A stretch of 64,000 nucleotides of DNA from Synechococcus sp. CBW1002 (GTDB lineage: Bacteria; Cyanobacteriota; Cyanobacteriia; PCC-6307; Cyanobiaceae): assembly GCF_015840915.1 (NCBI RefSeq), contig NZ_CP060398.1:3596001-3660000 (forward strand), read 5' to 3'. The position numbers and the translations under genes are program-made. Positions 29,983-45,701 of the stretch are shown here, piece after piece. Below the pieces are notes generated by a model, which did not search any database, was not told the origin of the DNA, and saw only the letters and a list, made by a program, of their open reading frames with translations. Within the stretch, counting starts at the first letter, position 1. Each line of letters starts with the position of its first letter.

Positions 29983-30252
29983 TGTGGACAGAGCCTGTCT
30001 ATGGACCACACGGCAGCCGGCGTATAGACGGCACGAGCTCATCGCAGGCCCTGATGCGGAACGTGAGAACCTGCCATGGAATGCCAAGGGAACATCCCAA
30101 GTGGTCACCACCATGAGGGTCAATACCGATGTCTGTGGCAGGGGCGGAGCAACCCGTAGTAGCGATGATGGGTCTGTAACGGACTCGGAGCCAAGGGGTT
30201 GCATCATCCCGTTTGGAGTCTCCCATCAACTGCCTACGGCAGGAGGAATGGG

Positions 30253-31503
30253 ATGACAACAGACAAGCCGCTACCGATTACCAAGGTGATGGTCTGGAAG
30301 GCCTATCAACAGGTGAAACGGAACGGACAGGCGGCCGGTGTGGATGGCCAAAGCCTGGACGACTTCAACAAGGATCTGGAGAATAATCTCTACAAACTCT
30401 GGAATCGGATGGCATCAGGAAGTTATCTTCCGCCACCAGTTCGGCGTGTGGAGATTCCCAAATCCGGTGGAGGCGTCAGGCCGCTGGGTATCCCGACGGT
30501 TGCTGATCGCATCGCACAGATGGTGGTCAAGCAGGTGCTGGAGCCAGAGCTGGAGCTGATCTTTGATCAGGATTCCTACGGCTACAGACCGGGCAAGTCA
30601 GCGCATCAGGCAGTAGAGGTCTGCCGTCAGCGCTGCTGGAGGTCCAACTGGGTTCTCGATCTCGACATCAAGGGGTTTTTCGATGCTATCGATCACGACC
30701 TGTTGATGCGCGCGATCAAGGCCCATACCTCCGAGCGCTGGGTGGTGCTCTACCTGCAACGATGGCTGCAGGCACCGGTTCTGTTGCCGGATGGCACGCT
30801 CCATCCCAGGGACCGGGGCACACCGCAAGGTGGTGTCATCAGTCCACTGCTGGCCAATCTGTTCCTGCACTATGCGTTTGATGTGTGGATGCGCCGGAGC
30901 CACCCGGCCATTGCCTTTGAGCGCTATGCAGATGATGTGATCTGTCATTGCCACAGCGAGAAGGAAGCTCGGCGGTTGCTGGAGGCATTGCAGGATCGCT
31001 TTGCGTCCTGTGGCCTCCAGCTTCATCCCCAGAAGACCCAGGTGGTCTACTGCAGGGATAGCAACCGCCGGGCACCGCTTGCTGATGTCACGTTCACGTT
31101 TCTTGGTTTCGCGTTTCGGCCACGTGTGTCTCGCAATTCTCGCGGAGTCATCTACACAGGCTTTTTGCCGGCAGTGAGTCCGCAGGCTCTCCAGCGTATG
31201 CGGGAGAGGATTAGGTCGATAGGGCTTCCATCGCTCGTGTATCTGTCGCTTGAGGAGATCGCTAAAGTGCTGAATCCAGTGATTCGTGGCTGGATTCAGT
31301 ACTACGGTCGTTTCTATAGGACAGAACTGATCAGGAAGTTGTATCGCTACCTGGATGACAGAATTGCAGCCTGGTTACGGCAGAAGTACAAAAGGCTGCG
31401 GGGTCGTCGGCTCCAAAGCTGGCGAGTACTTGCCAGGATCAGGTCTGGACATCGTGATCTGTTCGCGCACTGGCGTCGAGTCAGTGAAGTGGCATGTGGA
31501 TGA
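30253..31503 (+). CDS. ltrA: Group II intron reverse transcriptase/maturase
   Basis: The 416-residue protein starts at an ATG six bases after AGGAGG. It has the RT fingers-palm blocks in order: GVDGQSLDDF (RT0/1), IPKSGGGVRPLGIPTVADRIAQ (RT2), YGYRPGKSAHQAV, DLDIKGFFDAIDHD, TPQGGVISPLLANLFLH (RT4) and the catalytic FERYADDVICH (YADD, near residue 225), followed by LGFAFRP. A C-terminal maturase X/GIIM region follows (VIRGWIQYYGRFYR). No HNH endonuclease domain is present, so mobility would use nicks at replication forks. The gene is intact, but its RNA scaffold is split by IS66. Confidence 0.95.
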   Translation: MTTDKPLPITKVMVWKAYQQVKRNGQAAGVDGQSLDDFNKDLENNLYKLWNRMASGSYLPPPVRRVEIPKSGGGVRPLGIPTVADRIAQMVVKQVLEPELELIFDQDSYGYRPGKSAHQAVEVCRQRCWRSNWVLDLDIKGFFDAIDHDLLMRAIKAHTSERWVVLYLQRWLQAPVLLPDGTLHPRDRGTPQGGVISPLLANLFLHYAFDVWMRRSHPAIAFERYADDVICHCHSEKEARRLLEALQDRFASCGLQLHPQKTQVVYCRDSNRRAPLADVTFTFLGFAFRPRVSRNSRGVIYTGFLPAVSPQALQRMRERIRSIGLPSLVYLSLEEIAKVLNPVIRGWIQYYGRFYRTELIRKLYRYLDDRIAAWLRQKYKRLRGRRLQSWRVLARIRSGHRDLFAHWRRVSEVACG

Positions 31504-31506
31504 TGG

Positions 31507-31580
31507 GAGCCGTATGACGCGAGAGTGTCACGTACGGTTCTGTGAGCACCTCGGGGGGAAGTTCCCCGGGGTGACTCGAC
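31507..31580 (+). ncRNA. Group II intron domains V and VI
   Basis: Bases 31507-31540 form the canonical 34-nt domain V hairpin (GAGCCGTATGAC … GTACGGTTC). Domain VI follows with an 8-bp stem (CCTCGGGG / CCCCGGGG) and an unpaired A in GTGAC shortly before the 3' end, the expected branch point. The intron ends CGAC at 31580. Confidence 0.92.
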
Positions 31581-31710
31581 ATGGTTCGTCTGGTTGAGGT
31601 GGTTCTCGAACCAGGGAAACGGGCCTGCCCACCCCTTGCAACGCCAGGCGTCTGAGGTGTGCTCGCTCAGCCCCGGCTACGCAGGGGCTGCTCCTCCTGA
31701 GTTACACCAC

Positions 31711-32087
31711 TCCACGGGACGCTGCTCATCGCCAGATCTGCAGCCAGTTCCAGGGCAAGCGCAAGATCCCTTTCTTGGCGACGGATCACGAGATCAGCCA
31801 CAGCCGACAGATCACCTGGAGTCTGCGTGCCAAGGCGGCCCCAGAGCACATCGCTCAGTCCTGGATCGGCACCAGCTGGATCGTCGAGGTGGTGGCCACC
31901 TGAACCCGTGACGGCAAGCCCTTTCATGCCACGCATCTGTTTCTCACCAGCCTGCGCACAACCCCAGAATCCCTGCTGCAACTGGTGCGAGACCGCTGGA
32001 GCATTGAGTGCTGGCACTGGATCCGTGACACCCAGCTCCATGAAGATGCCCACCGCTACCGGGGCAATGGTGCTGGCGTGATGGCCG
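31711..32087 (+). pseudogene. ISAs1-family transposase remnant
   Basis: The plus-strand frame reads like the C-terminal half of ISAs1/H-repeat transposases: RQITWSLRAKAAPEH, FHATHLFLTSLRTTPESLLQLVRDRWSIECWHWIRDTQLHEDAHRYRGNGAGVMAA. A TGA stop interrupts it after IVEVVAT near 31901. Both the N-terminal half and the C-terminal tail are missing. It lies against the outer end of the IS256 element, which may have cut it. Confidence 0.8.
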
Positions 32088-32266
32088 CGGGCCAGCCATC
32101 CCCGAACCCATGGTGAGACTTTGAATCAGCCCTGGGACGGCTCGGGACTCCCACCAATCGCTGAACCTCATGCCGTCTGGGACGGCCAGGGACGTATCGG
32201 ACATGGTGCCGGGTCGTCTCGGGTTGGGCTGTGGCTGTCGCCCCGTAGCGGCGATTGCCAGCGGCA

Positions 32267-33250
32267 TCATCCAATTGGGTGAGGGTCGATCACCGTTCCG
32301 GGTGATTGTCCCGCCAGCCAGACCGCAGGCGCATCCTTGAACAGCTGCAGATCGCGCAGCATTGCGGCGGCGCGGCTCTGTTCGGCTTCCACCTCCCCAC
32401 GGTCTGGGCTGCCACTAGCCGTCACCCATGTTTGCTGCAGGGCTTCAACGTATTGCTCCAGGGGTATCGCCCCACCGTCGTGGCGGTAGCAGTCGCGTTC
32501 GCTGGGGTGCTCGGTCAGGGAGAACCCAAGCGCCGCCCGACTGGCCTCATGGCAGGTGGTGGCGATCTCCAGTAGGCGATCGAGGCTGAGCTCACAGTCC
32601 TCCGGCTCCAGGTGCGTCGGCGGGCCGGTGATGGCATACCGCTCTGGGTGACGCTGCGCCTGTTTCTTGCACCGTTCGCTGCAGGTGCGGGCGGTCTTGC
32701 GTTTCACCTGAAACAGCTCACCGCAGACTCGGCAGCGTCCCGTGCGGCTGGCCAGTTCGGTCGATCGTTGCCGCCGCTGCTGCCGCTTGCGTTCGGCGAT
32801 CTGATCGACCGCGACCGCATCACAGGCGGCGCTGCATTGCTGCCTGCCGCCGAACAGTCGCGTGGTGAGGAACAGCCCATCGCAGGCGCGGCAACGGCTG
32901 AGGCGATTCAATCCGTCAGGCAGCTGCAGGTGCTCGCAGGTCTGGCGCCCCAGGTCGATGCACAGGGCACTGCTACCGCTGCGAGCAGCCCTGCCACCGC
33001 TCGTTCGCAGGCGATCGTGCGAGTAGTCGGGGGGCAGCCCGAGGCGTTTCTCCATGGCGTTGAGATCCGACCACCACTGCTGTGCGGCGGGGTCGCCGTA
33101 CTCGGGTTGCGGGTTGCGCTGCCGCCATTCGCGGAGCTTCTGCCCCTGGCGGTCGATGTAGTCCCAGTGATTGGCGAGTTGCTGCGCGGTGTCGCCCGGC
33201 AGCTCTCCTGTAGGAAGCCGATCCATGGTGTCCCCGTAAGTGGTCCTCAT
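32267..33250 (-). CDS. Zinc-finger protein of unknown function
   Basis: I do not recognise this gene. From MRTTYGDTMDRLP the protein has 327 residues. It has two cysteine clusters that look like zinc ribbons, CRACDGLFL…QCSAAC (about residues 120-145) and CRVCGELFQVKRKTARTCSERCKKQ (about 175-200), separated by a very basic helix (ERKRQQRRQRS). The rest is acidic and helical. It lies on the same strand as the terminase-like gene upstream and probably belongs to the integrative island; a DNA- or RNA-binding role is an inference from the ribbons. A longer in-frame start at 33364 reads through low-complexity Pro/Gly text and is less likely. Confidence 0.6.
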   Translation of the reverse strand: MRTTYGDTMDRLPTGELPGDTAQQLANHWDYIDRQGQKLREWRQRNPQPEYGDPAAQQWWSDLNAMEKRLGLPPDYSHDRLRTSGGRAARSGSSALCIDLGRQTCEHLQLPDGLNRLSRCRACDGLFLTTRLFGGRQQCSAACDAVAVDQIAERKRQQRRQRSTELASRTGRCRVCGELFQVKRKTARTCSERCKKQAQRHPERYAITGPPTHLEPEDCELSLDRLLEIATTCHEASRAALGFSLTEHPSERDCYRHDGGAIPLEQYVEALQQTWVTASGSPDRGEVEAEQSRAAAMLRDLQLFKDAPAVWLAGQSPGTVIDPHPIG

Positions 33251-33513
33251 GGAGCGCCGTCCCCGTTGGGACAGCTTACCGGGACAGTTCCATCGGCGCC
33301 CAGCGGGCCGGGCCGCCGGAGCCCAGGCTCCCGGAATCGGGAACCCCCCCCACGCACACGGCACCTGCCGCCGTGGCAGCGGGCTGCTTCCGCCGGCGGC
33401 TGCCGGGGGAAGCAGAACCTCCTGGCAGCCGTCGGCAGTGGGATGCCCCCCGCGCCGGGGGGCGCCGGAAGCAATACCTCCTGACGGAAGTAGCAGAAAC
33501 CGCGCCGGGCTGG
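33251..33513. other. GC-rich intergenic region with hairpin
   Basis: Very GC-rich spacer between the terminase-like and zinc-finger genes. It contains a 7-bp GC hairpin (33445-33463, GCCCCCC / GGGGGGC) and two near-identical copies of GGAAGCAGAACCTCCTG (second copy with ATACC), both giving a strong AGGAGG on the minus strand. A short leaderless frame starts at the second AGGAGG but looks non-coding. Confidence 0.45.
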
Positions 33514-34059
33514 CTATTCCGATACCTTCATGCTACGGGATAACCCTTCCAGGGCAGATCTAATCTCACCTTCCAGCACCTCATTCAGCTTGGATTGTTG
33601 AACCGGGTCGATGACTCCCATGATTCCAGAGATTCGCCCCAGGATCCTTGCCGGAATTGATTCCATCGCGTCACGCATCTGCCGACACGCGACGAACCAT
33701 AGCTCTTCTACTTCATCAATAGGCACCAAGCTTCCGCGCCTTTCTTGTAGTTCTAGTTCCGCCATTTCTGCTAGCGCTGCTTCCTTCCTTGCTTGCGACA
33801 CTGCCCTAGGGGCCCAGTCGACATCCGCCACCACCGGGTCGCCGCTGATATTCACCTGCCGCCCCTGATGGCTGAGCACCGATGCGGCCCATTCGCGGTC
33901 GGCAATCTCCGGGTCGATTAGCACTCGCTGTCCATGTCTCTTTACACCCTGGCGGATTTTGCCTTGTGAAAGAGCTTGCTTCACCGTCGTATAGGCGCAA
34001 GCAAGGCCACGCTCCCGGCGATAGGAGCAATAGTCAGTAATCGAGAGAGTGTGTGCCAT
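33514..34059 (-). CDS. Phage terminase small subunit-like (Nu1/DNA-packaging type)
   Basis: This 181-residue protein has the plan of phage DNA-packaging small subunits. An N-terminal winged-helix segment (SITDYCSYRRERGLACAYTTVKQALSQGKI, residues 5-35) leads to VLIDPEIADREWAAS, where the site-specific DNA-binding part ends. A long charged helix (residues 85-125, ARKEAALAEMAELELQERRGSLVPIDEVEELW) and a C-terminal RDAMESIPARILGRISGIM region follow. In phages the small subunit recognises pac/cos DNA. In PICI and tycheposon satellites a stand-alone copy redirects helper-phage packaging. No large terminase, portal or capsid gene is near, which favours the satellite reading. Confidence 0.72.
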   Translation of the reverse strand: MAHTLSITDYCSYRRERGLACAYTTVKQALSQGKIRQGVKRHGQRVLIDPEIADREWAASVLSHQGRQVNISGDPVVADVDWAPRAVSQARKEAALAEMAELELQERRGSLVPIDEVEELWFVACRQMRDAMESIPARILGRISGIMGVIDPVQQSKLNEVLEGEIRSALEGLSRSMKVSE

Positions 34060-34411
34060 GCCAGCACTCTACCGGCGCCGTTTTCAGTCGGGCAGTGCCT
34101 GACCGGCGGGGTGCTGCTGATGCAAATGCGGCGAAAGTTTCCGGGGTGACTCGGCCAAAAGCACTGGTATCACTGGCTTCTGGGGTAGAACGTAGACATA
34201 ATACAATGGTGCTATGTGCGGGGTCTAGCTATGCTTGAAAATCTGAGGCTGGCCGTTTCCCGGGGCCTCGCGGCGTCGCACCTATAGGGGGTGGTATAAA
34301 GGACCCGCTCTTTCTTTGGGCCATGGGAATAACGACCGGCAACAGCGCTTGCTGTATCCACGCCATCATCAACAGGGCGGCAACTCATCACCAGAGCAGG
34401 CAGTGTGATCA
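34060..34411. other. Intergenic region upstream of the terminase-like gene
   Basis: No gene is seen. The region is lower in GC than its surroundings and on the minus strand has AT-rich promoter-like text (TTTATACC near 34290 and TTGTATTATG near 34203) suited to drive the terminase-like gene. No boxes with convincing spacing were fixed. Confidence 0.35.
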
Positions 34412-34639
34412 TCATCGTGATACTATCCCCGCCAGTCTGCGCCACCATGGGCGACTGACTGACTCTGTATCTGTACTGGCCAGTGGCTGCAGCTCCCAGA
34501 TAGTCCAGCAGCCACGTTTAGCTAATGCCTCATAGGTGTTGGCAGTGTGAACATATTGTTTGCGGTCAATATCGGCCCATCTTGCACCCTTAGCGGCGCG
34601 TGCCTTCAGGGCGTTGATCATCTCATCGTGGGTGTTCAT
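34412..34639 (-). CDS. Small hypothetical protein (75 aa)
   Basis: Not recognised. The frame starts MNTHDEMINALKARAAKGARWADIDRKQ and has an amphipathic, plausible protein composition in its first 55 residues, without membrane segment or cysteine motif. The tail (SVSRPWWRRLAGIVSR) is basic. It lies on the same strand as the terminase-like and other island genes. No clear ribosome binding site is seen, so it may be spurious. Confidence 0.35.
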   Translation of the reverse strand: MNTHDEMINALKARAAKGARWADIDRKQYVHTANTYEALAKRGCWTIWELQPLASTDTESVSRPWWRRLAGIVSR

Positions 34640-34771
34640 TGCGGGGTTTGGTATGGGGTGGAGTTAACGGTGGTGGTTCAGTGTCTTCTTCTGGGAGGCG
34701 TGGTAATACGCATGGCAAACAAAATGCGATTCCACAAGGATATAGATAATCGTATTTCGCACTTTCTCTGG

Positions 34772-34975
34772 CTATTTGTTATATAGACGGCGATATTCGG
34801 CGGCGATGGTGGCCGGCGGGAGGTGATGCACGAAACCGGCAACAGTGCCCGGCGGGCCGCAGTCCAGGCGCTGTCGCCATTGCCGGAGCGTCAGCTTCAG
34901 GGGCCCCTGAGGTGGCGGTGGTGACTGGTCCATCAGGCGGCCCCGTAGGCGATGGCGGGCGGTCAGGCGTGCCAC
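34772..34975 (-). CDS. Small hypothetical protein (67 aa or shorter)
   Basis: Not recognised. Two starts are possible, MARLTARHR or MDQSPPPPQGP fourteen residues later. The second half (LTLRQWRQRL and a C-terminal AAEYRRLYNK) is helical and basic. The start overlaps the 3' end of the preceding gene on the same strand by about 13 bp, an arrangement typical of coupled phage genes and the main reason to believe it. Confidence 0.4.
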   Translation of the reverse strand: MARLTARHRLRGRLMDQSPPPPQGPLKLTLRQWRQRLDCGPPGTVAGFVHHLPPATIAAEYRRLYNK

Positions 34976-35436
34976 GGTCCCGCGCAGACACCGCTGCTCG
35001 CCTCAGAGAAGTAGGTGGCGCACTCCTGGATCCAGTGCGGGGCGTGCTTGCCTCCCAGCTCCGGGCGTTCCCCTACTACCAGCTTGAGAGCGAAGCAGGA
35101 GGCGGGGTTCTTCGCGTGTTGCCGTGAGTGGCTGATGACGCGGACCCACCTGGGGCCAACATTCGGGTCGGGGATCAGCACGGCACCGCCGCAGATCAGC
35201 TCGTAACCGTCATCACTAACGAAGGTGGCGAAGGCCAGCACGGGCAGGCAGTCGTCTATCCACACGAAGGTTTCGCCCGTGTCATCGGCCTCGATCAGGT
35301 CAGCCCAGTAGAGCCAGGCGGGCAGGTGGGCAGGTACGACGGTCTGCAGTTGGCGCGGATCAGGGCTCAGCGCAGCGAAGGCCTCGCCGTCGGTGTAGCG
35401 CTTGCAAATGGTGTCCATCACGGTCTCAGTGGTCAT
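34963..35436 (-). CDS. Hypothetical island protein (157 aa)
   Basis: Not recognised. The protein is acidic and mixed alpha/beta in appearance, starting MTTETVMDTICKRYTDGEAF, with a core ETFVWIDDCLPVLAFATFVSDDGYELICGG and a conserved-looking HWIQECATYF near the C-terminus. There is no signal peptide or membrane segment. It lies between the iteron-like array and the small downstream frames, on the same strand as the primase-helicase remnant. Codon usage looks like the neighbouring island genes. Confidence 0.5.
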   Translation of the reverse strand: MTTETVMDTICKRYTDGEAFAALSPDPRQLQTVVPAHLPAWLYWADLIEADDTGETFVWIDDCLPVLAFATFVSDDGYELICGGAVLIPDPNVGPRWVRVISHSRQHAKNPASCFALKLVVGERPELGGKHAPHWIQECATYFSEASSGVCAGPWHA

Positions 35437-35533
35437 CAGGGTCTCGATCGAAGGGTTAGGGGTGCTACTGGCTTGGGGCCGGCGCAGCGGCGGGCCGGGG
35501 GTTGGCGGCGGTTTTTTTCGTCACTGGCGGTTT

Positions 35534-35832
35534 TGCTCAGGGCTGCTCAGGGCTGTCCCCCGTTTTGCTCAGGGCTGGCTTTTCCCCCAGACCGCTTGCG
35601 GCGCAGTGGGTCTGGGGGTGTTGGGCACTTTGCTCAGGGCTGTTTTTGACCTTCGCCTACACAGCGCAGTGATGCACATGGTTTTTCCTATAGGGAGGGA
35701 GATACAAACAGCCCTGAGCAGAATTGGCCGGACAGGGCCAGACCCGTTGCAGCACAAGCCGTTTTGCCGTTTGGACAGCCCTGCTCAGGCCCTGAGCAGG
35801 CCCTGAGCAGGTCCTGAGCAGGTCCTGAGCAG
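35534..35832. repeat. Iteron-like array, candidate replication origin
   Basis: The 12-mer TGCTCAGGGCTG occurs at 35534, 35544, 35566 and 35631 and in inverted form (CAGCCCTGAGCA) at 35709. Four 11-bp tandem units of GCCCTGAGCAG/GTCCTGAGCAG occupy 35789-35832. All share the core CTGAGCA. The array begins 6 bp after the primase-helicase stop codon. P4-like elements have origins made of short iterons bound by their own primase-helicase, so an origin is the best guess. An AT-richer stretch (about 35640-35710) sits between the two halves. Confidence 0.6.
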
Positions 35833-35837
35833 GGCCC

Positions 35838-36743
35838 TCATGGCTGCACCTCCGGGCGGCGGGCGGCGGGCAGTGCTGCGATGGCCTCCAGCCCGCCGTC
35901 ACTCATGCCGCGCGGGTTGAACACGTCGCGTTTGAACTCCAGGGCATGGGGCAGCCAGAGCCCCGGCCTCAACGTGAACCCGGCATCAAACCGCGGCAGG
36001 TTCAACCTCTCGGCCTGGGTGCGGCCAGCGGCGCGGGCCTCGTCGGTGCTCTCGCGGTGGCGCTCCAGGCAACGGGCAGGGCCAAGGGTGCGCCGCAGCT
36101 GGCTGATGAAGTTGGTTCGCTGCATCCCGGTGGGGACGTTGCTGTAGCGACACCAGCCCATGTAGGACTCATACAAATCCAGCCAGTCCTGCTGCCTCAC
36201 TTCGGTATCGGGCCCCAGGGGGCTCGGCATCAGGCAGGCATCGGCCCACTGGCTAACGGTGTCTGACGTGGCTGCGACAGCTGCTGCAGCGGCCCGTAGC
36301 AGCCCCTCCGGGTCATTCCTGGCCAGCACCTCCAGCACCTCAGCCAGCGGCATTGACAGGGCCCAACTGGCAGCCTCAGCGCGGATCGCGTGATGCCTTG
36401 GCGTGTCACCTTCCAGCGCTGCCTTCAAGGAGGGGTCCGGGTCGCCGTGACGGGGCAGGGTTTCCAGAGTGAGCACGCGCCGTTGGAAACCTTCGCGGCC
36501 ATCCCTGAACTGCAACGGGACCACGCTGGCCAGGATGCAGCGCGCAAACATCCGCCGTGGCTTTTCGCCTTCGGGACCATTCAGCCGGCGGGTGGTCTGC
36601 GGCTGGTTTTCGACCAGTTCGTAGAACAGGTTGCAGGTAGCACCACGCGCCACGGTGACCGGGCAATCGGGGAACACCAGCAAGCGCCGCCCGATCGCGT
36701 ACTGGTAGAGCTTTTCGGGCCCCGCCAGTTCGGACGGATGCCC
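35838..36743 (-). pseudogene. P4-like helicase (DUF5906/SF3), C-terminal half
   Basis: This is the detached C-terminal half of the primase-helicase whose N-terminal half lies at 41854-42606. It begins GHPSELAGPEKLYQYAIGRR, then LLVFPDCPVTVARGATCNLFYELVENQPQTTRRL, an arginine-finger-like QRRVLTLETLP region and a helical tail. When the DNA between the CTAG sites is removed the frame joins exactly as LQSSL-GHPSEL. An internal start at 36683 could still make a fragment, but without Walker A it would lack ATPase activity. Confidence 0.85.
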
Positions 36744-37890
36744 TAGTATGCCGTCCCGGAAATAACAGCTAGAATCGAGAGTGTCACCCGAGGTGCCTTG
36801 TGGCGCTTGGTCGTCCGATGCCTCCGCTGGTCCTCAGCGAGGACGAGGTTCAGCAGTTGCGGGCCCTTGCAAATTCCCGGTCGTTGCCGCATTCGATCGT
36901 GCAGCGCGCTCAGATCGTGCTGGCCTGCGGTGCCGGCGAGACCAACACCGCCATCGCCAAACGGATGGGGCTGACGGGGATGACCGTTGGCAAGTGGCGC
37001 AAGCGGTACCGGGAGCTGGGCCTGGAGGGCCTGCATGACGAGCTGCGGCCGGGTAGGCCTCGCACCTACGAGGACGACACGGTGGCGGAGGTGATCAACC
37101 GGGCACTGCAGACCAAGCCCACCGATGGCAGCACCCAGTGGTCTGCGCGCTCCCTCGCGGCTGCCACCGGCATCTCCAAAACCACCGTTCACCGCTGGCT
37201 GCAGACTTTCTCGGTCCAGCCCCACCGGCAGAAGTCGTTCAAGCTCTCCACCGACCCGTTCTTTGTGGAGAAGGTCCGCGACATCGTCGGCCTGTACCTG
37301 AACCCTCCGGATAAGGCGATGGTGCTCTGCGTCGACGAGAAGACGCAGATCCAGGCACTGGACCGCACCCAGCCGCTGTTGCCCATGGGCCTGGGTTACG
37401 TGGAGGGCGTCACCCACGACTACATCCGCCACGGCACCACCACGCTGTTCGCTGCTCTGGATGTGGCAACAGGCGAGGTGATCACCCAATGCAAGCCCCG
37501 CCATAGGCATCAGGAGTTCCTGGGGTTCCTGCGCCAGATCGAGAAGTCGGTCCCCGAGGAGCTTGATGTCCACTTGATCGTCGACAACTACTGCACCCAC
37601 AAGCACGCCAAGGTGAGGGCCTGGCTGGCGCAGCGGCCCCGCTTCCACGTGCACTACACACCGACCTACGCCTCCTGGATCAACCAGGTGGAGCGTTGGT
37701 TTGGGATCATCACCCAGCGGGCGATCCGACGCGGCAGCTTCTCCAGCGTCAAGGAGTTGATCTCCAAGATCGAGCAATTCGTGGCGGCCTACAACAAGAC
37801 CAAGGCGCCGTTCAACTGGACGGCCACAGCGGATTCAATCCTGGAGAAGCTCCAGCGACTTTGCTCGCAGATCTCCGGGACGGCACACTA
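36744..37890 (+). mobile_element. IS630-family element inserted in the helicase gene
   Basis: Terminal repeats TAGTATGCCGTCCCGGA (36744) and the complement of TAGTGTGCCGTCCCGGA (ending 37890) include the TA dinucleotide that IS630 elements duplicate. The element entered the helicase gene at a CCCTAGGG site. A second element later used the CTAG formed at its right junction. Confidence 0.92.
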
Positions 37891-37891
37891 G
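36818..37891 (+). CDS. IS630-family transposase
   Basis: The 357-residue protein (ATG at 36818; an in-frame GTG lies 18 bp upstream) is complete. It has an N-terminal HTH pair ([26 protein letters not shown] and [14 protein letters not shown]) and the DDE domain, seen in [15 protein letters not shown] (Asp), [15 protein letters not shown] (Asp) and [17 protein letters not shown] (third acidic residue). Tc1/mariner-type cut-and-paste activity at TA sites is expected. The TAG stop uses the TA of the right target end, so the coding region spans practically the whole element. Confidence 0.93.
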
Positions 37892-37991
37892 GAGCCTGTC
37901 GCGCATAGATCACCGCCCGCACTCTCCACAGACGCCCCTGAATCTGCCCAGATCCCAGTGACTGCAATGGATCTGCTCGATAGAATGGGGC

Positions 37992-38462
37992 ATGGCCAAG
38001 TCCAAAACCTTCCGCCCCTGGCAGCCTGAGCAGATCACCCTGTTGCCACCGTCGCCCAGGGAGTGGCTCTCGGATGATCACCAGGTTTATTTCCTGCTGG
38101 ATCTGGTCGATGAGCTGGATCTCTCGGCCATCCTCATCCCTGCCCAAAGCAAGGATCCTCGCGGGGAGAAAGGGTTTGATCCGCGAATGATGACGCTGTT
38201 GCTGCTCTACGCCTACTGCGTGGGCACCGTCTCCTCCCGCAAGATCGAGCGTGCCTGCTACGAGGATCTTGCGTTCCGCGTGCTGACCGGTAATCAGCAA
38301 CCTGATCACAGCCGTATCAGTGAATTCCGGCGCCGCAACCTTGATGCCCTCAAAGGCCTGTTCATTCAGATCCTGCGGCTGTGCCAGAAGGCCGGGATGG
38401 TGAGCCTGGGCCATGTAGCCCTCGATGGCACCAAGGTGCAGGCCAGTGCCTCCAAACACAAG
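37992..38462 (+). pseudogene. IS1182-family transposase, N-terminal part
   Basis: 157 codons starting MAKSKTFRPWQPEQITLLPPSPREWLSDDHQVYFLLDLVDELDLSAI, the family's usual opening, through RISEFRRRNLDALKGLF to the first catalytic segment GHVALDGTKVQASASKHK. The frame then enters foreign DNA at 38463. The rest of the gene resumes at 40619 with AMSHQRM, exactly where the family's consensus continues. Confidence 0.92.
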
Positions 38463-38569
38463 ACACTCCTATGGACTGTCAAGCCCCCGGACGCTCCGGC
38501 TGAGCGCCATCGAGGTGGCAGTGCTGACCAGCTCAGCCACGATGGCCGTGAACCAGCGCTGGCCACGCC

Positions 38570-39217
38570 GTGGAACCCGTCACCACCTCCAGCGAGCTGC
38601 TGCTGTGGGAGGCCATCGACCAGGTCCGTAGGGCAGAGGACGGTCCTGATCTCTCCCTCGATGAGCTGGCTGAGTGTGTGATGGCCGCCCTGGGTTCATC
38701 GCTGTCGCTGCAGCAGATCTGCAGAGCGGCTGATGGCTTGCTGCACCTGGCCGACGATCCCAGCCAAGGGAGCGCCGCACGGCAGGTTCCTGTGGTCGAT
38801 GTGCAGGCCGTGCAGGAGAGGGCGCTGAATCTCTTGGATTGGCAGGAGCTGGAGGATGGCGACGATCGCAGCGACAACCAGAAGCTGATCGACAACGCCA
38901 CCGATCCCGACACCGTGCTCGTGCGCGATCCCTCCGCCACTCCGGAGCTGCAGGAGATCGGCATCCTCGAGCTCCTGCAGCGCTATCCCTGTCGCGGCAA
39001 CGATGCCCGCTGGAGCCCCGACGATGCCATCGCCTTCCTGGAGACAAAGGCCCGCTGGCTGGATGCGGCACTGGAGACCTGGGAGGCCGATGGCGAGGCC
39101 ATGGCCGACGACAGCGACGTGAGCGAGGCCAAAGCCGTCGTGCTGGTCGTGCCGGAGAAGCCTGGCCAGGCGTTGCTGTCCGAGGTGCTCGACGTGCTGA
39201 TCCCCGTGGAGGAGTGA
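38570..39217 (+). CDS. Hypothetical acidic protein inside the IS110-bearing insert
   Basis: I do not recognise this 215-residue protein. It starts at a GTG (EPVTTSSELLLWEAIDQVRRAEDGPD). It is very acidic, helical, and lacks cysteine clusters or membrane segments. The first 60 residues (DLSLDELAECVMAALGSSLSLQQICRAADGLLHLA) look like a compact helical domain. The second half is a series of charged helices ending LLSEVLDVLIPVEE. It ends 20 bp before a 22-bp hairpin. It may be a passenger gene of the insert or a captured fragment of a larger protein whose N-terminus was lost. Confidence 0.5.
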   Translation: MEPVTTSSELLLWEAIDQVRRAEDGPDLSLDELAECVMAALGSSLSLQQICRAADGLLHLADDPSQGSAARQVPVVDVQAVQERALNLLDWQELEDGDDRSDNQKLIDNATDPDTVLVRDPSATPELQEIGILELLQRYPCRGNDARWSPDDAIAFLETKARWLDAALETWEADGEAMADDSDVSEAKAVVLVVPEKPGQALLSEVLDVLIPVEE

Positions 39218-39237
39218 ACCACCGGCCGGCTCTCGTT

Positions 39238-39286
39238 CTGGCAGATCCGTTGCCTGCCGCCCCACGGCAGGCAACGGATCTGCCAG
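39238..39286. terminator. 22-bp perfect hairpin between convergent genes
   Basis: Arms 39238-39259 and 39265-39286 pair perfectly around a five-base CCCCA loop. It lies between the stop codons of the acidic-protein gene (+) and the IS110 transposase (-), so it could end both transcripts. No T-run follows on either side. It might also be an IS110 end structure. Confidence 0.55.
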
Positions 39287-39319
39287 GAGCCTGGGCTACT
39301 GGAGCAATCCTGCTGGCGA

Positions 39320-40402
39320 TCAGGCCGTTGCGGTGCGAACGGCGGGACCGCCGCGCAGGATGCCGAACACCTCGCGGGCGACGAACCGCTTGAGGCAGCG
39401 GATGATCTCCTTCATCGAGCGTCCTTCTGCCGTGCGTCGTTCGACGTACTCCCGGGTCTGCTGATGCCGCTGCAGCCGGCAGATCACGATGCGGTGCAGG
39501 GCGCAGTTGGCCTGGCGGTTGCCGCTGCGGTTCAGCCGGTGCCGCACCACCTTGCCCGAACTGGCGGGCAGTGGATTGACGCCACAGAGGGCAGCGAATG
39601 ACGCCTCGGATTTCATCCGTTCCTGGTTGTCGCCAACTGCCACAACGAGGGTGGCACTGATGTCCACACCCACGCCGTAGGTGTTCCGCAGCTCGGGGCA
39701 CAGCTGCATGGTCAGTCGATCCAGCTGCGTGACGGTTTCCTTGAGCTCCTCATCCAGCTGCTGGATGCGGCGCGCCAGGATGCGCAGGGTCATCTTGGCG
39801 GCCGCCTGAGGGGTGGTGATCTCGCCAGAACGCAGGCCTGTGCAGCTTTCGAGCAGCTCCTTTCTCTTGAGCCGCTGCAGCCGTTCCCGCAACGCTGCCG
39901 GCGCCGTCACCACGATGGCGTGCAGCTGATTGAGGGCTGCGGTGCGGTTCGCGGTGGCCGAATCCTTGGCCACCTTGAGCATGCGGATCATCTCCACCAA
40001 AGCGTCGCCCGCCTTGGGGATGACGCTGGCCGTTCCGGCGATACAGGCCCGTGCTGCGGCCTCCGCATCGATGGTGTCGTCCTTACCGATGCGCCGCCGC
40101 GTGGAGCGATCCGGCCGGTTCACTTCTACCACTGCCATCCCTGCGGCCTGCAGGGCGCGGCAGAGCCCGGCGCCGTAGCAACCGGTTCCCTCCACGGCGA
40201 ATACCGGGTTGGAGCCGAATGCTGCGGCCCAGCGGATCAGCTCCTGGTAGCCACTGCGTTTGGCATCCAGCTTGAGGCTGCCCAGCCAGCCGCCATTGGC
40301 GCCCAGGGCCACCGCCATGTGCGTGAGTTTGTGGGTGTCAATGCCGACCACCACATCGTGGCCAGTGCTGATCTCGGGGGCATGTGCTGTCGCTGCGCTC
40401 AT
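39320..40402 (-). CDS. IS110-family DEDD transposase
   Basis: The 360-residue protein, started at MSAATAHAPEIS (a second start lies 27 bp upstream), has both IS110 domains. The RuvC-like DEDD part is seen in VVGIDTHKLTHMAVAL (Asp), FAVEGTGCYGAGL (Glu) and KDDTIDAEAAARA (two Asp). The C-terminal transposase_20 domain has TYGVGVDISATLVVAVGD and the reactive-serine region SFAALCGVNPLPASSGKVVRHRLNRSGNRQ. The gene looks intact. IS110 enzymes work with a structured bridge RNA from the element's noncoding end, here most likely upstream of this gene. Confidence 0.93.
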   Translation of the reverse strand: MSAATAHAPEISTGHDVVVGIDTHKLTHMAVALGANGGWLGSLKLDAKRSGYQELIRWAAAFGSNPVFAVEGTGCYGAGLCRALQAAGMAVVEVNRPDRSTRRRIGKDDTIDAEAAARACIAGTASVIPKAGDALVEMIRMLKVAKDSATANRTAALNQLHAIVVTAPAALRERLQRLKRKELLESCTGLRSGEITTPQAAAKMTLRILARRIQQLDEELKETVTQLDRLTMQLCPELRNTYGVGVDISATLVVAVGDNQERMKSEASFAALCGVNPLPASSGKVVRHRLNRSGNRQANCALHRIVICRLQRHQQTREYVERRTAEGRSMKEIIRCLKRFVAREVFGILRGGPAVRTATA

Positions 40403-40618
40403 GACTGCTGGGGACGGGAGGGGGTGCAACCAACCGGGCAGACGGACAGGCCATTGACGGGACGGGAACGTCGGACTCCTATGAGGTCACGGGACTTCCC
40501 GGCTGGTTGCCCCACCGCACGGACCGACAGGTCTTGTGAAAGACACCACCCCAAACTGGAGAAGGTCCGCCATGAGCAGGGTCAGGCCCGCGCTGGTGGG
40601 GTCCCGAAATCATCAATG
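40403..40618 (-). ncRNA. Candidate IS110 bridge-RNA region
   Basis: This stretch lies upstream of the IS110 transposase at the element end where IS110-group members encode their bridge RNA. No protein frame is convincing here. It contains several short GC-rich inverted segments (for example around GGGACTTCCCGG). The target- and donor-binding loops were not worked out, so this is a positional guess. Confidence 0.3.
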
Positions 40619-41695
40619 GCCATGAGCCACCAGCGGATGCTCAGGGCTGAGAAGGAACTGGAGAAAGAGATCAACGCCTTGGTGCGCAAGGCCGAAATCC
40701 TGGATGCCCAGGAGGATCGCCGGTACGGCAAGGACAAACGCGGCAGTGATCTGCCCGATGCGTTGCGGCACAAGCAGAGCCGCCTGGCCAGGATCCGCCA
40801 GGCACGCAAGGAGATGGAAGCGGAAACCGCTGCTGCCGCTGCACGGCAGCGATGGGAGGAAGCAGAGAAAGCCAGCGCCAAAGCGGCGGCTGCGCGCGAG
40901 GCCGATGCACCAGCAACGGAACAGGCCGAGCTGACCAGAAAAGCTGAGGCAGCAGCTGCCAAAGCCAAAGCGGCGAGGGAGCAGGCCATCGAGACCGCCG
41001 AAAACGCCGGACTGGAGCCGCCGGATCTGCAGCCGCTTGCGGCTGATGCGATGCCCAGGCGTGGCCTGGCCAGGAAGGCCGACGGCACACCAACCAAGAA
41101 GACCCAGCGCAATTTCACTGACCCCGAGAGCCATCTGATGCAGTCAGGCGGCTCCTATCTGCAGGGCTACAACTGCCAGTTGGCGGTCGACAGCGACCAC
41201 CAGGTGATCGTGGCGGTGGGTGTGAGCAACCAGCCCCCAGATGTCGAGCACCTGACTCCCATGCTGGGGCGCATCGTTGACAGCGCTGGTGCGCTGCCGG
41301 ATGTGATGACGATGGACGCGGGCTACTGGAGCGAGGCCAACGCCAAGGCCTGCGCTGATCAGGGCATCGACGCCTACATCGCCACCGGCCGCCTGCCCCA
41401 TGGCAAGCCACCACCGCCGAAACGCGGACCGCTGCCCAAAGATGCCGATGAGAAAACCCGGATGGCCCGCAAGCTCAGAAGCAAGAAGGGGTCAAAGATC
41501 TACGCCCAGCGCAAAGCGATCGTGGAACCGGTGAACGGTCAGATCAAGGAAGCCAGAGGCCTGCGGCGCTTCCTGCTGCGAGGCCTGCAGAAGGTCGACG
41601 GCGAATGGCACCTGATCGCTGCGACACACAACCTGCTCAAGCTTTTCCGCTACAGACGATCACAGCAGCCGGGGCTGGCGGCAGCGACAGGCTGA
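40619..41695 (+). pseudogene. IS1182-family transposase, C-terminal part
   Basis: The continuation of the transposase at 37992-38462. It starts AMSHQRMLRAEKELEKEINALVRKAE, passes the family's long Ala/Glu/Lys-rich helical insert and reaches the DDE_Tnp_1 core: NFTDPESHLMQSGGSYLQGYNCQLAVD, VMTMDAGYWSEANAKAC (second Asp) and AIVEPVNGQIKEARGLRRFLLRG (Glu). No other lesion is seen, so exact loss of the insert would restore a full gene. Confidence 0.92.
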
Positions 41696-41853
41696 AGGGG
41701 AATGCCCCTGTCTGGCCAAGTTGGTCAGAGACGAATCAGCACCATCGCGATGGTCAACAGGACGAGAAGCCTGCGGCACCGGATAGATCCGGTCTGCGGA
41801 CGCAGTGTTCGCTGCACTCGCCTGGCCGGGCGGTATGGGCGACAAACTCCTAG

Positions 41854-42606
41854 GGAGGACTGCAGATCAGTTGGCAGCAGACCCAGCAGGAAGGCCAGCA
41901 GGGTGCCTTTCCCGGTGCCGGTATGGCCGAGCAGGTGGAAGGCCTGCCCGTAGGGGATTGATGGGTCGATCAGCCAGCGGATCAGCGCCCGGACGATCGA
42001 CCCGGCACCTTCGGGGTAGCAGGTGGTGAGCAGCCGCCGCAGCTCGGGCGGGCAGGCTGCGCCGGCCTTGTAATCAGCGGCGATCCCATAGGTGGCGCCG
42101 TGGTCGGGATCGTGGGGCTCAAGCGTCCCGGTGGCCAGGTTGTAGGTGCCATTGCGGAACACCACCACGGGCGGTGGTGTCGCGCTGCTGAGGGGCCCCT
42201 GGCCGGCTAGCACCTTGAGGGACGCCACGGTGTCGCGCACATGGCGGATCGACCCGTAGGGGTAGGTGGGGCCCTTGTTGGCGGCCATCTTGCAAACCCG
42301 GCGCAGCAGCCCCTGAGCACGGGTTTCGTAGATGTCATCACCCTCCCGCTGCCAGTAACCGGCAGCAGCGTCGTAACGGAACAACGTCCGCGCGACGGAT
42401 GCCAGCCGGCCCTGAGCTTCGGCATAGAGCGCATCAGCGCCTTGCAGATCGATGGGGCGACCATCGTCAAGCTGCTCTCCATCCGGCGGCGCAGCGGCAG
42501 CCTCCAGCCCCGGCGGATCGGTCGTAATGGCGGCCAGCAGTTGCTCAGCGGTGGCGCCTTCTGCGATCCAGTCGGCTACATCAAGGCCACCGGTGGCAGG
42601 GCATGA
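41854..42606 (-). pseudogene. P4-like helicase, N-terminal half (Walker A part)
   Basis: This frame reads ATGGLDVADWIAEGATAEQLLAAITTDPPG onward, then LFRYDAAAGYWQREGDDIYETRAQGLLRRV (D5-like N-terminal region), and the Walker A loop LLGHTGTGKGTLLAFLLGLLPTDLQSSL. It is then cut at the CTAG site. Its upstream end overlaps the primase gene in another frame. A single-base change near 42600 would fuse them, so the two were probably one polypeptide. Its other half lies at 35838-36743. Confidence 0.85.
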
Positions 42607-43792
42607 GCCGTTCCATTAGGTGCGGCTGATCGGGCCAGCACAACAACCACCGGGCGCCGGGATGGGCGACAGCAATCTGGCGGGCATGTTCGATCCCCTT
42701 GCGGTCACGATCTGGGACGATCACCAGCCGATCGGGCGGGAACAAACCGCCATCGCGGGCGGGGTTGAACTTGCCAGCGCCGCCGATGCTGGTCACTGCC
42801 GGCAGACCCAGCGACCGCAGCGCATCGACGCACGGCTCACCCTCGACCCAGAACACCGCCTCAGCGCCGGCTTCCAGGGCCTCCAGGGCCTCGCGGTAGC
42901 CGTAAGGCATGACCAGGGCCTGCAGATCGCGGGGGGCCTTGCCGGCCACCAGGGCCTGTTGATAGATCTTCCGTTTTCCGCTGCCGTCGTCGTTGCGCTT
43001 GACGGTGATCAGCGGGGTGCCATCGCGGTCGCAGTAGGTCCATGCCCGTGTGGCCTTGGGCCTGATCGACTTGCGGGGCTCCAGGGGGCGATCCAGCCGG
43101 AACTGGCCCCAGCCGGCGGAATCACCCAAATATGCCCAGATCTGCCCGTCGTGACCGGGGCCGTGGCTGCCCTTGCGGTCTGCCCAGCTCGGCGGCTGGT
43201 GGGTGGTCCCGCGCCAGCAGAGCACCAGGCCGTTGGCGTTGGTGGAGCACTTCGCATCCTTGACGCGACCGCAGACCGGGCAGGGGTTGCGACGGCTGAA
43301 ACGGGTGAGCGGACCCCGCCCCGACCCCGCGCCGGGGGTGCGCTCAACGCGGGTCTGCGTGAGCTCCGGGCAGAAATCCAGCAGAGGCATCCAGTCCTGA
43401 TCCAGAGCCTCCTTGCTTGGATAATTCTTGCGATCAGAATCGATGTCCACCACATCCGTGGACGGGATGATGACGAGTTCGATCGGCTGTCCCAGTCGCT
43501 CGGCGACATCAAGCCGTTTCAACACCTCAGACTCATCAGCCGGCTGGCTCTGACTTGTCAATCTCGGCTCGCCATCAGCCAGCCAGAAACTCGGGTTCTT
43601 GCCGTCAAATGCAGGGAGAAGCTGCCCGTTGTTGTCACGCTGAACCTCCCTTTGACCGGTTGTGCTGTTCTGCTTGGCCACCGGGTAGGACTCGGCAGGA
43701 AGCGCCACTGGAATCACCGTCTGCAGGCTGAGCCCCAGCCGGGACAGATAGCCGACCGCTTCCCTCAGTGCTGTGTAGTTGCAGGGGGTCAT
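42581..43792 (-). CDS. Primase with Toprim domain (N-part of a P4-like primase-helicase)
   Basis: The 403-residue frame has an N-terminal primase-polymerase-like region with VVDIDSDRKNYPSK (two metal-binding-like Asp, near residue 116), a zinc ribbon CPVCGRVKDAKCSTNANGLVLC (about 175-195) and a Toprim domain. The Toprim motifs are VFWVEGEPCVDALRSLGLPAV (Glu, near 315) and LVIVPDRDRKGIEHA (DxD, near 365). It would synthesise primers for the island's replication. The segment TRVERTPGAG jumps quickly to the zinc ribbon, so part of the AEP fold may be deleted. The C-terminus (CHRWP) is out of frame with the helicase half downstream. Confidence 0.8.
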   Translation of the reverse strand: MTPCNYTALREAVGYLSRLGLSLQTVIPVALPAESYPVAKQNSTTGQREVQRDNNGQLLPAFDGKNPSFWLADGEPRLTSQSQPADESEVLKRLDVAERLGQPIELVIIPSTDVVDIDSDRKNYPSKEALDQDWMPLLDFCPELTQTRVERTPGAGSGRGPLTRFSRRNPCPVCGRVKDAKCSTNANGLVLCWRGTTHQPPSWADRKGSHGPGHDGQIWAYLGDSAGWGQFRLDRPLEPRKSIRPKATRAWTYCDRDGTPLITVKRNDDGSGKRKIYQQALVAGKAPRDLQALVMPYGYREALEALEAGAEAVFWVEGEPCVDALRSLGLPAVTSIGGAGKFNPARDGGLFPPDRLVIVPDRDRKGIEHARQIAVAHPGARWLLCWPDQPHLMERLMPCHRWP

Positions 43793-44083: not shown

Positions 44084-44383
44084 ATGAGCCCATCTCTGAC
44101 AGCTGCGGATGACATCAAGCAGCAACTCAATCTCATCTGTGCTCAGCTGAATGTGATCCAAGCGAAGCTGGAGCTGAAGCCCAGGCTCAGCAGCAGCCCC
44201 TGGCTGCCCCTGTCCGAAGCCGCCATGGCCCTGCATTTCCCAAGCACCCGTGCCCTGCGCATGGCCATCGACCGCGGTCGCATCCCTCCTCAGTTCGTGA
44301 GCGCCACCACCGGCGACACCGGCAAGCGCAGGACGCTGTACGTGGATGTGGAGGGCTTCGCCTCACATCTGCGCAACAAGTGA
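44084..44383 (+). CDS. Small HTH protein, excisionase-like
   Basis: This 99-residue protein has an N-terminal coiled-coil-like helix (DDIKQQLNLICAQLNVIQAKLEL) and a winged-helix-like segment (residues 40-70, WLPLSEAAMALHFPSTRALRMAIDRGRIPPQFV), followed by a basic turn (TGKRRTLYVDVEGFASHL). The layout matches excisionases and Cro-like regulators of integrative elements. It runs against the integrase gene and overlaps its 3' end by 21 bp. A role in directing excision or controlling the integrase is inferred from size, fold and position. Confidence 0.6.
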   Translation: MSPSLTAADDIKQQLNLICAQLNVIQAKLELKPRLSSSPWLPLSEAAMALHFPSTRALRMAIDRGRIPPQFVSATTGDTGKRRTLYVDVEGFASHLRNK

Positions 44384-45484
44384 GGCCATCGAGGCGCTGT
44401 CAAACCAGCGCTGGTAGAGCGTGGTGTGAACCATCAGGGAATGCCCGAGGCTCTTGGCCGCCAGGGACGGGCTGATCTGCGGGTTGTGAATCGCCCGCAC
44501 CGCCCAGGCATGGCGCAGGTCATAGGCCTGAAAGGGTGCCCCGAACCGCCGCAGCGCCACACCCAGCTGTGCTCCCACCGTGCGGTGGTCCCGATCGAGG
44601 TTGATGCCGGGCAGGCGCCTGCGTTCAAGCGACCAGCGATCGATCCAGGCTTTCGGGAGTGGCAGCCCCTGGCGGGCTCCGGTTTTTCCTCCCTCAATCG
44701 CCACGAGGCCATTGGGCTGGACCTGAGCCTTCATCAGTGCCTCATGGGGGCGAGTGCCATAGGTGGCGCACACACCGGCAACCCACTGCCAATCGGCGGG
44801 CAACGCATCAATCACCTCAAGAATCACCGCATCCGTGGGCAGCTCACGCGGGGCCGCATCCTTCTGTGGGGTGTACCCCTTGCCGAGATCCTTGAGCTTT
44901 TGGACGGCTTCCGGGCCCAGATCGATCGCACGGGCCACTGCCACGGTGGCGATTGAAGCCCGACGCCGGTTGCGGCTCCCCACCTCCTTGCTCTCGACCA
45001 AAGCGGTCAGCACCTTCAGATCGATCTTCTCCAGAGACAGCAGTGGCTTGAGGGGCGAGGCGTAGTCGGTGGCCCAGGAGACCGGGGCACTCACCCCACG
45101 CCTTCGCTGCTGGATCCACCATTGCTCGGTGCGGCGGATCGCCTGAACGCCGCTGATCCCGTCTTCGGCCTCCCCACCCTTCTTCCCGCCTCCACTTTTC
45201 TGGGAGTCATCGAACCACCGCTCAAAGGGGAAGGGGTCCAGCCCCATGCGGTGGAGCTCGATATCCCGGCCGAGCTCCTCGGCCAGCTTGCGGGCTTGCT
45301 CCAACCCCGCGGGGTAGGTAATCGGGGTGCTGATGCGCTGCTGCTTCCAGGAGCCGTCGGGCAGCGGCATCGTGCTTCTGAGCCGCAGGCGCTTGCCGGA
45401 GGGAGCGACCTCAATCGCCACCGCGCAGCCCAAGTCCCTGAGGGCCCGGTTGACACGGGTCAGATACGGGTCCTTGGAGGGCAT
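44363..45484 (-). CDS. int: Tyrosine recombinase / integrase
   Basis: The 373-residue protein is a phage-type integrase. The C-terminal catalytic domain shows the first Arg in TYGTRPHEALM (near residue 248), a Lys in EGGKTGARQGLPLPK, the H-x-x-R-like box in YDLRHAWAVRAI (near 325) and the LGHS…TLYQRW box with the nucleophile Tyr (near 355). The N-terminal half holds an arm-binding region with a long linker rich in Lys/Gly (SGGGKKGGEAEDG). It sits 133 bp from tRNA-Leu with repeats between, the classical layout of an island integrated at a tRNA 3' end. Confidence 0.93.
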   Translation of the reverse strand: MPSKDPYLTRVNRALRDLGCAVAIEVAPSGKRLRLRSTMPLPDGSWKQQRISTPITYPAGLEQARKLAEELGRDIELHRMGLDPFPFERWFDDSQKSGGGKKGGEAEDGISGVQAIRRTEQWWIQQRRRGVSAPVSWATDYASPLKPLLSLEKIDLKVLTALVESKEVGSRNRRRASIATVAVARAIDLGPEAVQKLKDLGKGYTPQKDAAPRELPTDAVILEVIDALPADWQWVAGVCATYGTRPHEALMKAQVQPNGLVAIEGGKTGARQGLPLPKAWIDRWSLERRRLPGINLDRDHRTVGAQLGVALRRFGAPFQAYDLRHAWAVRAIHNPQISPSLAAKSLGHSLMVHTTLYQRWFDSASMASLVAQM

Positions 45485-45617: not shown

Positions 45618-45701
45618 TGGGGGCAGGGGGACTTGAACCCCCACAGTGTCGCCACCTGCGGATTTTAAGTCCGCTGCGTCTACCGATTCCGCCATGCCCC
45701 C
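45618..45701 (-). tRNA. tRNA-Leu (anticodon UAA)
   Basis: An 84-nt cloverleaf with a GGGGGCA / TGCCCCC acceptor stem, D-arm GCGGAATCGGTAGACGC, anticodon loop CTTAAAA (anticodon TAA), a long variable arm as in class II tRNAs, and GGTTCAAGTCC T-loop. CCA is not encoded. There is no group I intron in the anticodon loop, unlike many cyanobacteria. It marks the right end of the integrative island. Confidence 0.96.

Follow-up and report, generated by a model that had tools for sequence, protein, structure and literature searches.

We found a candidate replication origin in a 64,000-nucleotide stretch of the chromosome of Synechococcus sp. CBW1002 (NZ_CP060398.1, positions 3,596,001 to 3,660,000; hereafter the window), where an array of short repeats (iterons) lies beside a gene for a D5_N/SF3 helicase. 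Sequence comparison suggests, with a probability that we put at roughly 0.8, that a phage-satellite-like island starts its replication at this array, that the array has the bipartite layout of phage-inducible chromosomal islands (PICIs) and Staphylococcus aureus pathogenicity islands (SaPIs), and that it is read by the island's own helicase. Within our analysis, this reading is based on the architecture of the array, its non-randomness, its recurrence beside related helicases, an iteron core shared in the subfamily of the helicase, and a winged-helix-like model of the helicase C-terminus. A preliminary description of the same DNA had proposed an iteron origin for the cognate primase-helicase, and the comparison with relatives supports that proposal well.

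Structure of the repeat array

The 12-mer TGCTCAGGGCTG is present in five exact copies, four on the + strand and one inverted, which confirms the count in the preliminary description. The + strand copies form the left arm (35534-35642) at 35534-35545, 35544-35555, 35566-35577, and 35631-35642, the first two sharing a 2-bp overlap. The right arm, on the - strand, consists of the inverted copy (35709-35720) and five 11-bp tandem units at 11-bp spacing (35780-35836), namely the four CCTGAGCAGG units with a CTGAGCA core noted before and one CCTGCTCAGG unit; the tandem sequence reads CCTGCTCAGGC and then 4 x CCTGAGCAGG[C/T/G]. The core TGCTCAG/CTGAGCA occurs 10 times in the whole array and is present in every 12-mer and 11-bp unit. 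The span 35534-35836 is a single bipartite structure with four cores on the left, a 66-bp gap, and six cores on the right, and the 12-mers bordering the gap are exact inverted copies of each other. The gap (35643-35708), the putative unwinding element, is indeed the AT-richer stretch described earlier between the arms, with 55% AT versus 38% in the window, a level reached by 4.3% of all window segments of that length.

The helicase gene ends with a stop codon at 35838-35840 on the - strand, and the next open reading frame (ORF) on that strand starts at 35436. Thus, the array fills the intergenic gap, and its nearest repeat ends a few bp from the stop codon, which it had been said to adjoin. 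The exact 12-mer occurs nine times in the 3.85-Mb chromosome, five of them within these 187 bp and four elsewhere, versus 0 for the reversed-pattern control. It is therefore not a dispersed repeat, and scattering of the repeats through the host genome, named beforehand as an argument against an origin, was not seen. In the window, CTGAGCAGG was observed 11 times versus 1.6 expected, with five of the 11 in the array. Searches of 399 other genomes of the family and of viral contigs gave no second example of the exact 12-mer array. A pair of 12-mers no more than 30 bp apart was present in one of these genomes (G167), isolated and beside another gene, which we judged to be chance, and in none of the viral contigs.

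The helicase and a proposed mechanism

Family matches assigned the helicase to the D5_N / P4-family primase C-terminal type. Among solved structures, 7ola alone showed clear sequence similarity (E 6.7e-11 with alignment A2 and 1.3e-4 with alignment A1); it is listed as 'DNA primase', and we take it to be the SaPI5 primase-helicase. The confident part of the model for the C-terminal fragment in the window gave modest Z scores with the C-terminus of African swine fever virus PrimPol (Z 6.2), the P4 origin-binding domain 1ka8 (Z 5.7, root-mean-square deviation 4.4, 85 residues aligned), and the RFX DNA-binding domain (Z 5.4). At these modest scores, the model suggests that the C-terminus is winged-helix-like (model residues about 137-267 of ORF 35838-36683).

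We infer binding, double-hexamer loading, and replication by analogy with SaPI origins (PMC9894130), PICIs (PMC6092414), and SaPI Rep and Cch2 (PMC7581432). The C-terminal winged-helix domain of the helicase would bind the CTCAGGG/CCCTGAG words in the two opposed iteron sets, and one hexamer would load per side in opposite orientation, head to head. The two hexamers would open the AT-richer gap and unwind outward; the primase and a host polymerase would then copy the excised circle.

Arrays beside related helicases

The closest relative, G091 (helicase 54% identical), carries ten GGTCTCAGGGCT-type sites at the equivalent position, in inverted orientation on the two sides of an AT-richer gap of 106 bp; no stop codon interrupts the frame across the array, and it continues into a family-A DNA polymerase (Pfam 2e-32). 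The G091 helicase matched the Nostoc plasmid NZ_CP091924 with 32.7% identity over the helicase part, and on this plasmid eight ACCCTGAGA/TCTCAGGGT words lie around a strongly AT-rich gap (~130 bp), ~0.9 kb downstream of rep. The preliminary description had looked to homologous islands for the same 12-mer: the exact 12-mer is not shared and some islands have no array at this place, but the CTCAGGG core is common to the window array, G091, and NZ_CP091924.

Profile searches of the family and of the wider phylum yielded 53 loci for scanning, 23 of them from the same family. If the 1.2-kb region at the 3' end of the helicase domain contained four or more copies of a 9-mer inside 400 bp, an array was scored. 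Arrays were present at this place in 29 of the 53 loci, with about 1.4 expected; the remaining 463 kb of the same loci held 10 clusters (0.026 per 1.2 kb), and such a cluster appeared in 0 of 1060 dinucleotide shuffles. The clusters in L063, L083, and L085 possibly reflect chance or low complexity. Inversion about an AT-rich gap was seen in 21 of 25 scorable arrays. The iteron words vary by lineage (ACCCTTCAC, ACCCTCCAT, ACCCTGCAT, AACTGCCGA, CCTGATCCA, and others), and iteron similarity tracks helicase similarity (Mantel r 0.31; 0 of 5000 permutations), same-genus loci not being independent. Named plasmids show the same arrangement beside rep.

CyRepA1 of pSYSA was rejected as a family member, with no 9-mer cluster found in pSYSA 30000-38000; a CyRepA1-annotated match covered the N-terminal third only of a relative's helicase query. 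No relatives of the helicase were found in the viral contigs searched, and the helicase search of genome contigs returned a sole record, G279, from a Cyanobium sp. CZS25K metagenome-assembled genome. Separately, further 9-mer clusters lie 6-7 kb beyond the helicase in L060 (about 16405-16615; AACTGCTAT x6) and L068 (about 18844-19222; ACAATCAAT x6). The Nostoc plasmid (L106; Nostoc sp. UHCC 0870) also encodes a protelomerase-family protein at 1707-2735, and because of this gene it may be a linear phage-plasmid, though it is recorded as circular.

In-gene placement of the array

The array precedes the helicase stop codon by about 90-520 bp in 8 of the 23 same-family loci, and in-gene arrays were also seen in most matches of the wider set and in Gloeothece, Allocoleopsis, Crinalium, and Nostoc plasmids. 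Three more loci (G091, G022, and G013) have the array within an ORF that extends into a family-A polymerase; the predicted helicase-array-polymerase ORFs (L020 7230-12623, - strand; L068 7694-12784, + strand; L069 8367-12677, + strand) span 1436-1805 residues without a stop. In the window, by contrast, the frame ends just ahead of the array and is closed beyond.

One in-gene member, G319, was modeled in full with low overall quality (mean predicted local distance difference test score [pLDDT] 56.5), and only the confident and clearly disordered regions were used. The full model had no significant match in the PDB. Its confident parts include a winged-helix-like stretch at about residues 340-433 and a tail of three helices at 511-555; residues 435-509 have a pLDDT of about 25-34. 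By arithmetic, the array would code for about residues 440-498, that is, a predicted disordered linker. The tail that follows the array is conserved between G318 and G319, indicating that the array is truly coding there; the synonymous/nonsynonymous count for this pair (4/36) is uninformative.

Taken together, we find it fairly probable that cyanobacterial replicons with D5_N/SF3 primase-helicases, both islands and plasmids, carry a SaPI-like two-sided origin in the 3' portion of the helicase coding sequence, that this origin also codes for a disordered linker following the winged-helix domain, and that three of the frames continue into a family-A DNA polymerase. Each lineage would have its own iteron word, and hence gene and origin would travel as one self-addressed unit; the window array would be the member just outside the frame.

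Comparison with known origins

In PICIs, two iteron sets flank an AT-rich region immediately 3' of rep, as tested for EcCICFT073, and no other known bacterial replicon has this architecture according to the same report (PMC6092414); PMC7581432 also gives the layout of iterons around an AT-rich region for SaPIs and PICIs. The window array is likewise immediately 3' of the initiator gene and two-sided about an AT-richer gap, and the gene order in the window resembles the int-pri-rep-ori-terS order of SaPIbov1, SaPI1, and EcCICFT073 (PMC6092414, PMC7581432). PICIs have a site-specific integrase at a specific attachment (att) site, pri-rep-ori, and often terS, with no phage structural or lysis genes; the window has an integrase, tRNA-Leu, a primase-like gene, the helicase, and a small terminase. 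PICI and SaPI origins are served by a self-loading SF3/D5_N helicase, Rep, which has a C-terminal DNA-binding domain and binds the iterons; their rep-ori segment replicates autonomously, and PICIs are induced and packaged by a helper phage. Unlike PICIs and SaPIs, the window island is cyanobacterial, with a new iteron word and a broken helicase, whereas most of its cyanobacterial relatives, several of them plasmids, have the array within the rep frame.

The putative origin of Cch2 in staphylococcal cassette chromosome mec (SCCmec) is also similar, in that a D5_N/primase_Cterm helicase uses its C-terminal domain to bind direct repeats that directly follow the helicase gene; however, these are three 5-nt AAGTG iterons, and the passages of PMC7581432 consulted do not describe a two-sided set around an AT-rich gap. 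Plasmid pRN1 of Sulfolobus encodes ORF904, an SF3 primase-helicase with a winged helix, and has an essential region directly downstream of the gene, but this region is a 100-nt stem-loop with no iterons (PMC4234260). The term 'P4-like' in the preliminary description holds in part for the protein, since the helicase, like phage P4 alpha, is of the P4-family primase C-terminal type and its C-terminal model aligns with 1ka8; it does not fit the DNA, whose layout is that of PICIs and SaPIs. P4 replication requires a separate crr region besides ori, whereas the window array is one two-sided block adjoining rep. In phage lambda, the origin consists of iterons and an AT-rich element within the initiator gene O, where it codes for a linker; O is not a helicase and the lambda iterons are one-sided. 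The in-gene arrays of the cyanobacterial relatives resemble this arrangement, but the window's own array is outside the gene.

Because the array has the known PICI/SaPI layout, the label 'undescribed origin', used at first, goes too far for the type of origin; this particular example and the family to which it belongs appear new. In the openly readable literature searched, such origins in cyanobacterial islands and plasmids, and their usual in-gene position, are not described. The arrays offer candidate origins for many replicons of the cyanobacteria, a phylum in which few plasmid origins have been mapped. They also form a natural set of helicase/iteron pairs in which to study origin choice by a self-loading helicase, and could supply compact rep-ori cassettes for cyanobacterial vectors.

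Counter-evidence and alternative explanations

Several observations weigh against an origin. By the test used, the 3' end of the helicase domain carries no array in 24 of the 53 loci, including the second-nearest relative G279 (helicase 48% identical) and the G044, G083, G205, and G062 islands. The covariation of iterons and helicases could be explained by plain common descent. The gap of the window array is merely 55% AT, and the cognate helicase gene is broken. Among the plasmids, an extremum of GC skew lies near the array in pP742404 (minimum 9053, array 9971-10272) and not in the others.

The array might instead be an operator for transcription control by the helicase or another regulator, without origin function. 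The 11-bp phasing, which puts the tandem units on the same helix face, would suit such a role, and iteron binding often regulates rep too. However, the array is found where the gene ends, in many relatives still within the coding sequence, and not at the promoter, and it flanks an AT-rich gap; we regard a pure operator as very unlikely. Packaging is another possible role: the island has a small terminase gene about 1.5 kb away, and small terminases can bind repeated sites near their own gene. That the array is a packaging (pac) site is nonetheless very unlikely, as a pac site would require none of three features of the layout: its presence beside rep on plasmids, its correlation with helicase relatedness, and its centering on an AT-rich gap. 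Neutral, decayed repeats or transposon debris in a dying island would be in keeping with the disrupted helicase and with the insertion sequence (IS) elements and group II intron reverse transcriptase in the island. We consider this very unlikely, given that the five 12-mers are identical, that the word is not dispersed in the genome, and that the layout persists in relatives that use other words. Arm-type binding sites of the integrase are highly implausible: repeat clusters do sit between integrase and tRNA in G279 and G062, but in the window about 8.5 kb separates the array, which adjoins the helicase, from the integrase gene.

The G279 and G062 clusters themselves may be integrase arm sites or an origin that has moved. 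Such clusters between the integrase gene and tRNA, in relatives without a 3' array, lie at L021 12114-12204 (CGGGAACCA) and L025 14302-14374 (TGCACGGAA). In the G044 island, the helicase is followed by a gene for a terminase large subunit (L022 11750-13177, + strand; phrog_2, 1.6e-25).

The island and its broken helicase gene

On the - strand, the island reads tRNA-Leu(TAA), integrase, primase-like protein, D5_N helicase, array, small ORF, and small terminase. The tRNA-Leu gene (45618-45701) is the probable attachment site. It is followed by a tyrosine integrase (44363-45484; phrog_1, 2.8e-05) and the primase-like protein (42581-43792), which had a weak match to DNA primase/helicase phrog_239. 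On the + strand, a small ORF (44084-44383) without a family match is a candidate excision or regulatory protein, a role guessed from its position. No convincing second att copy was found by similarity to the tRNA-Leu region, and the far end of the island was not found.

As a point of correction to the preliminary description, the helicase gene is split by ~5.1 kb of nested insertion sequences (36741-41853), with an IS110 transposase at 39320-40429 and other transposase-like ORFs. The 5' part (41854-42516, - strand) carries D5_N and Walker A, the 3' part (35838-36740, - strand) carries the winged-helix-like domain, and the break falls between residues equivalent to G091 534 and 537. The IS block showed no resolvable terminal repeats or target-site duplications, and its ends are given approximately. 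Helicase searches of the genome returned these two gene parts only and no intact homologue. With the gene cut in two and no intact homologue found, the origin is probably silent or a relic in this host, usable only when a compatible helicase arrives.

Beyond the array, the small subunit of terminase is encoded at 33514-34059 on the - strand (phrog_57, 1.4e-20), a gene that points to a phage satellite. Near this terminase side of the island, an ORF on the + strand (30199-31503) encodes a group II intron reverse transcriptase/maturase (RVT_1 1.4e-42, GIIM 7.2e-19).
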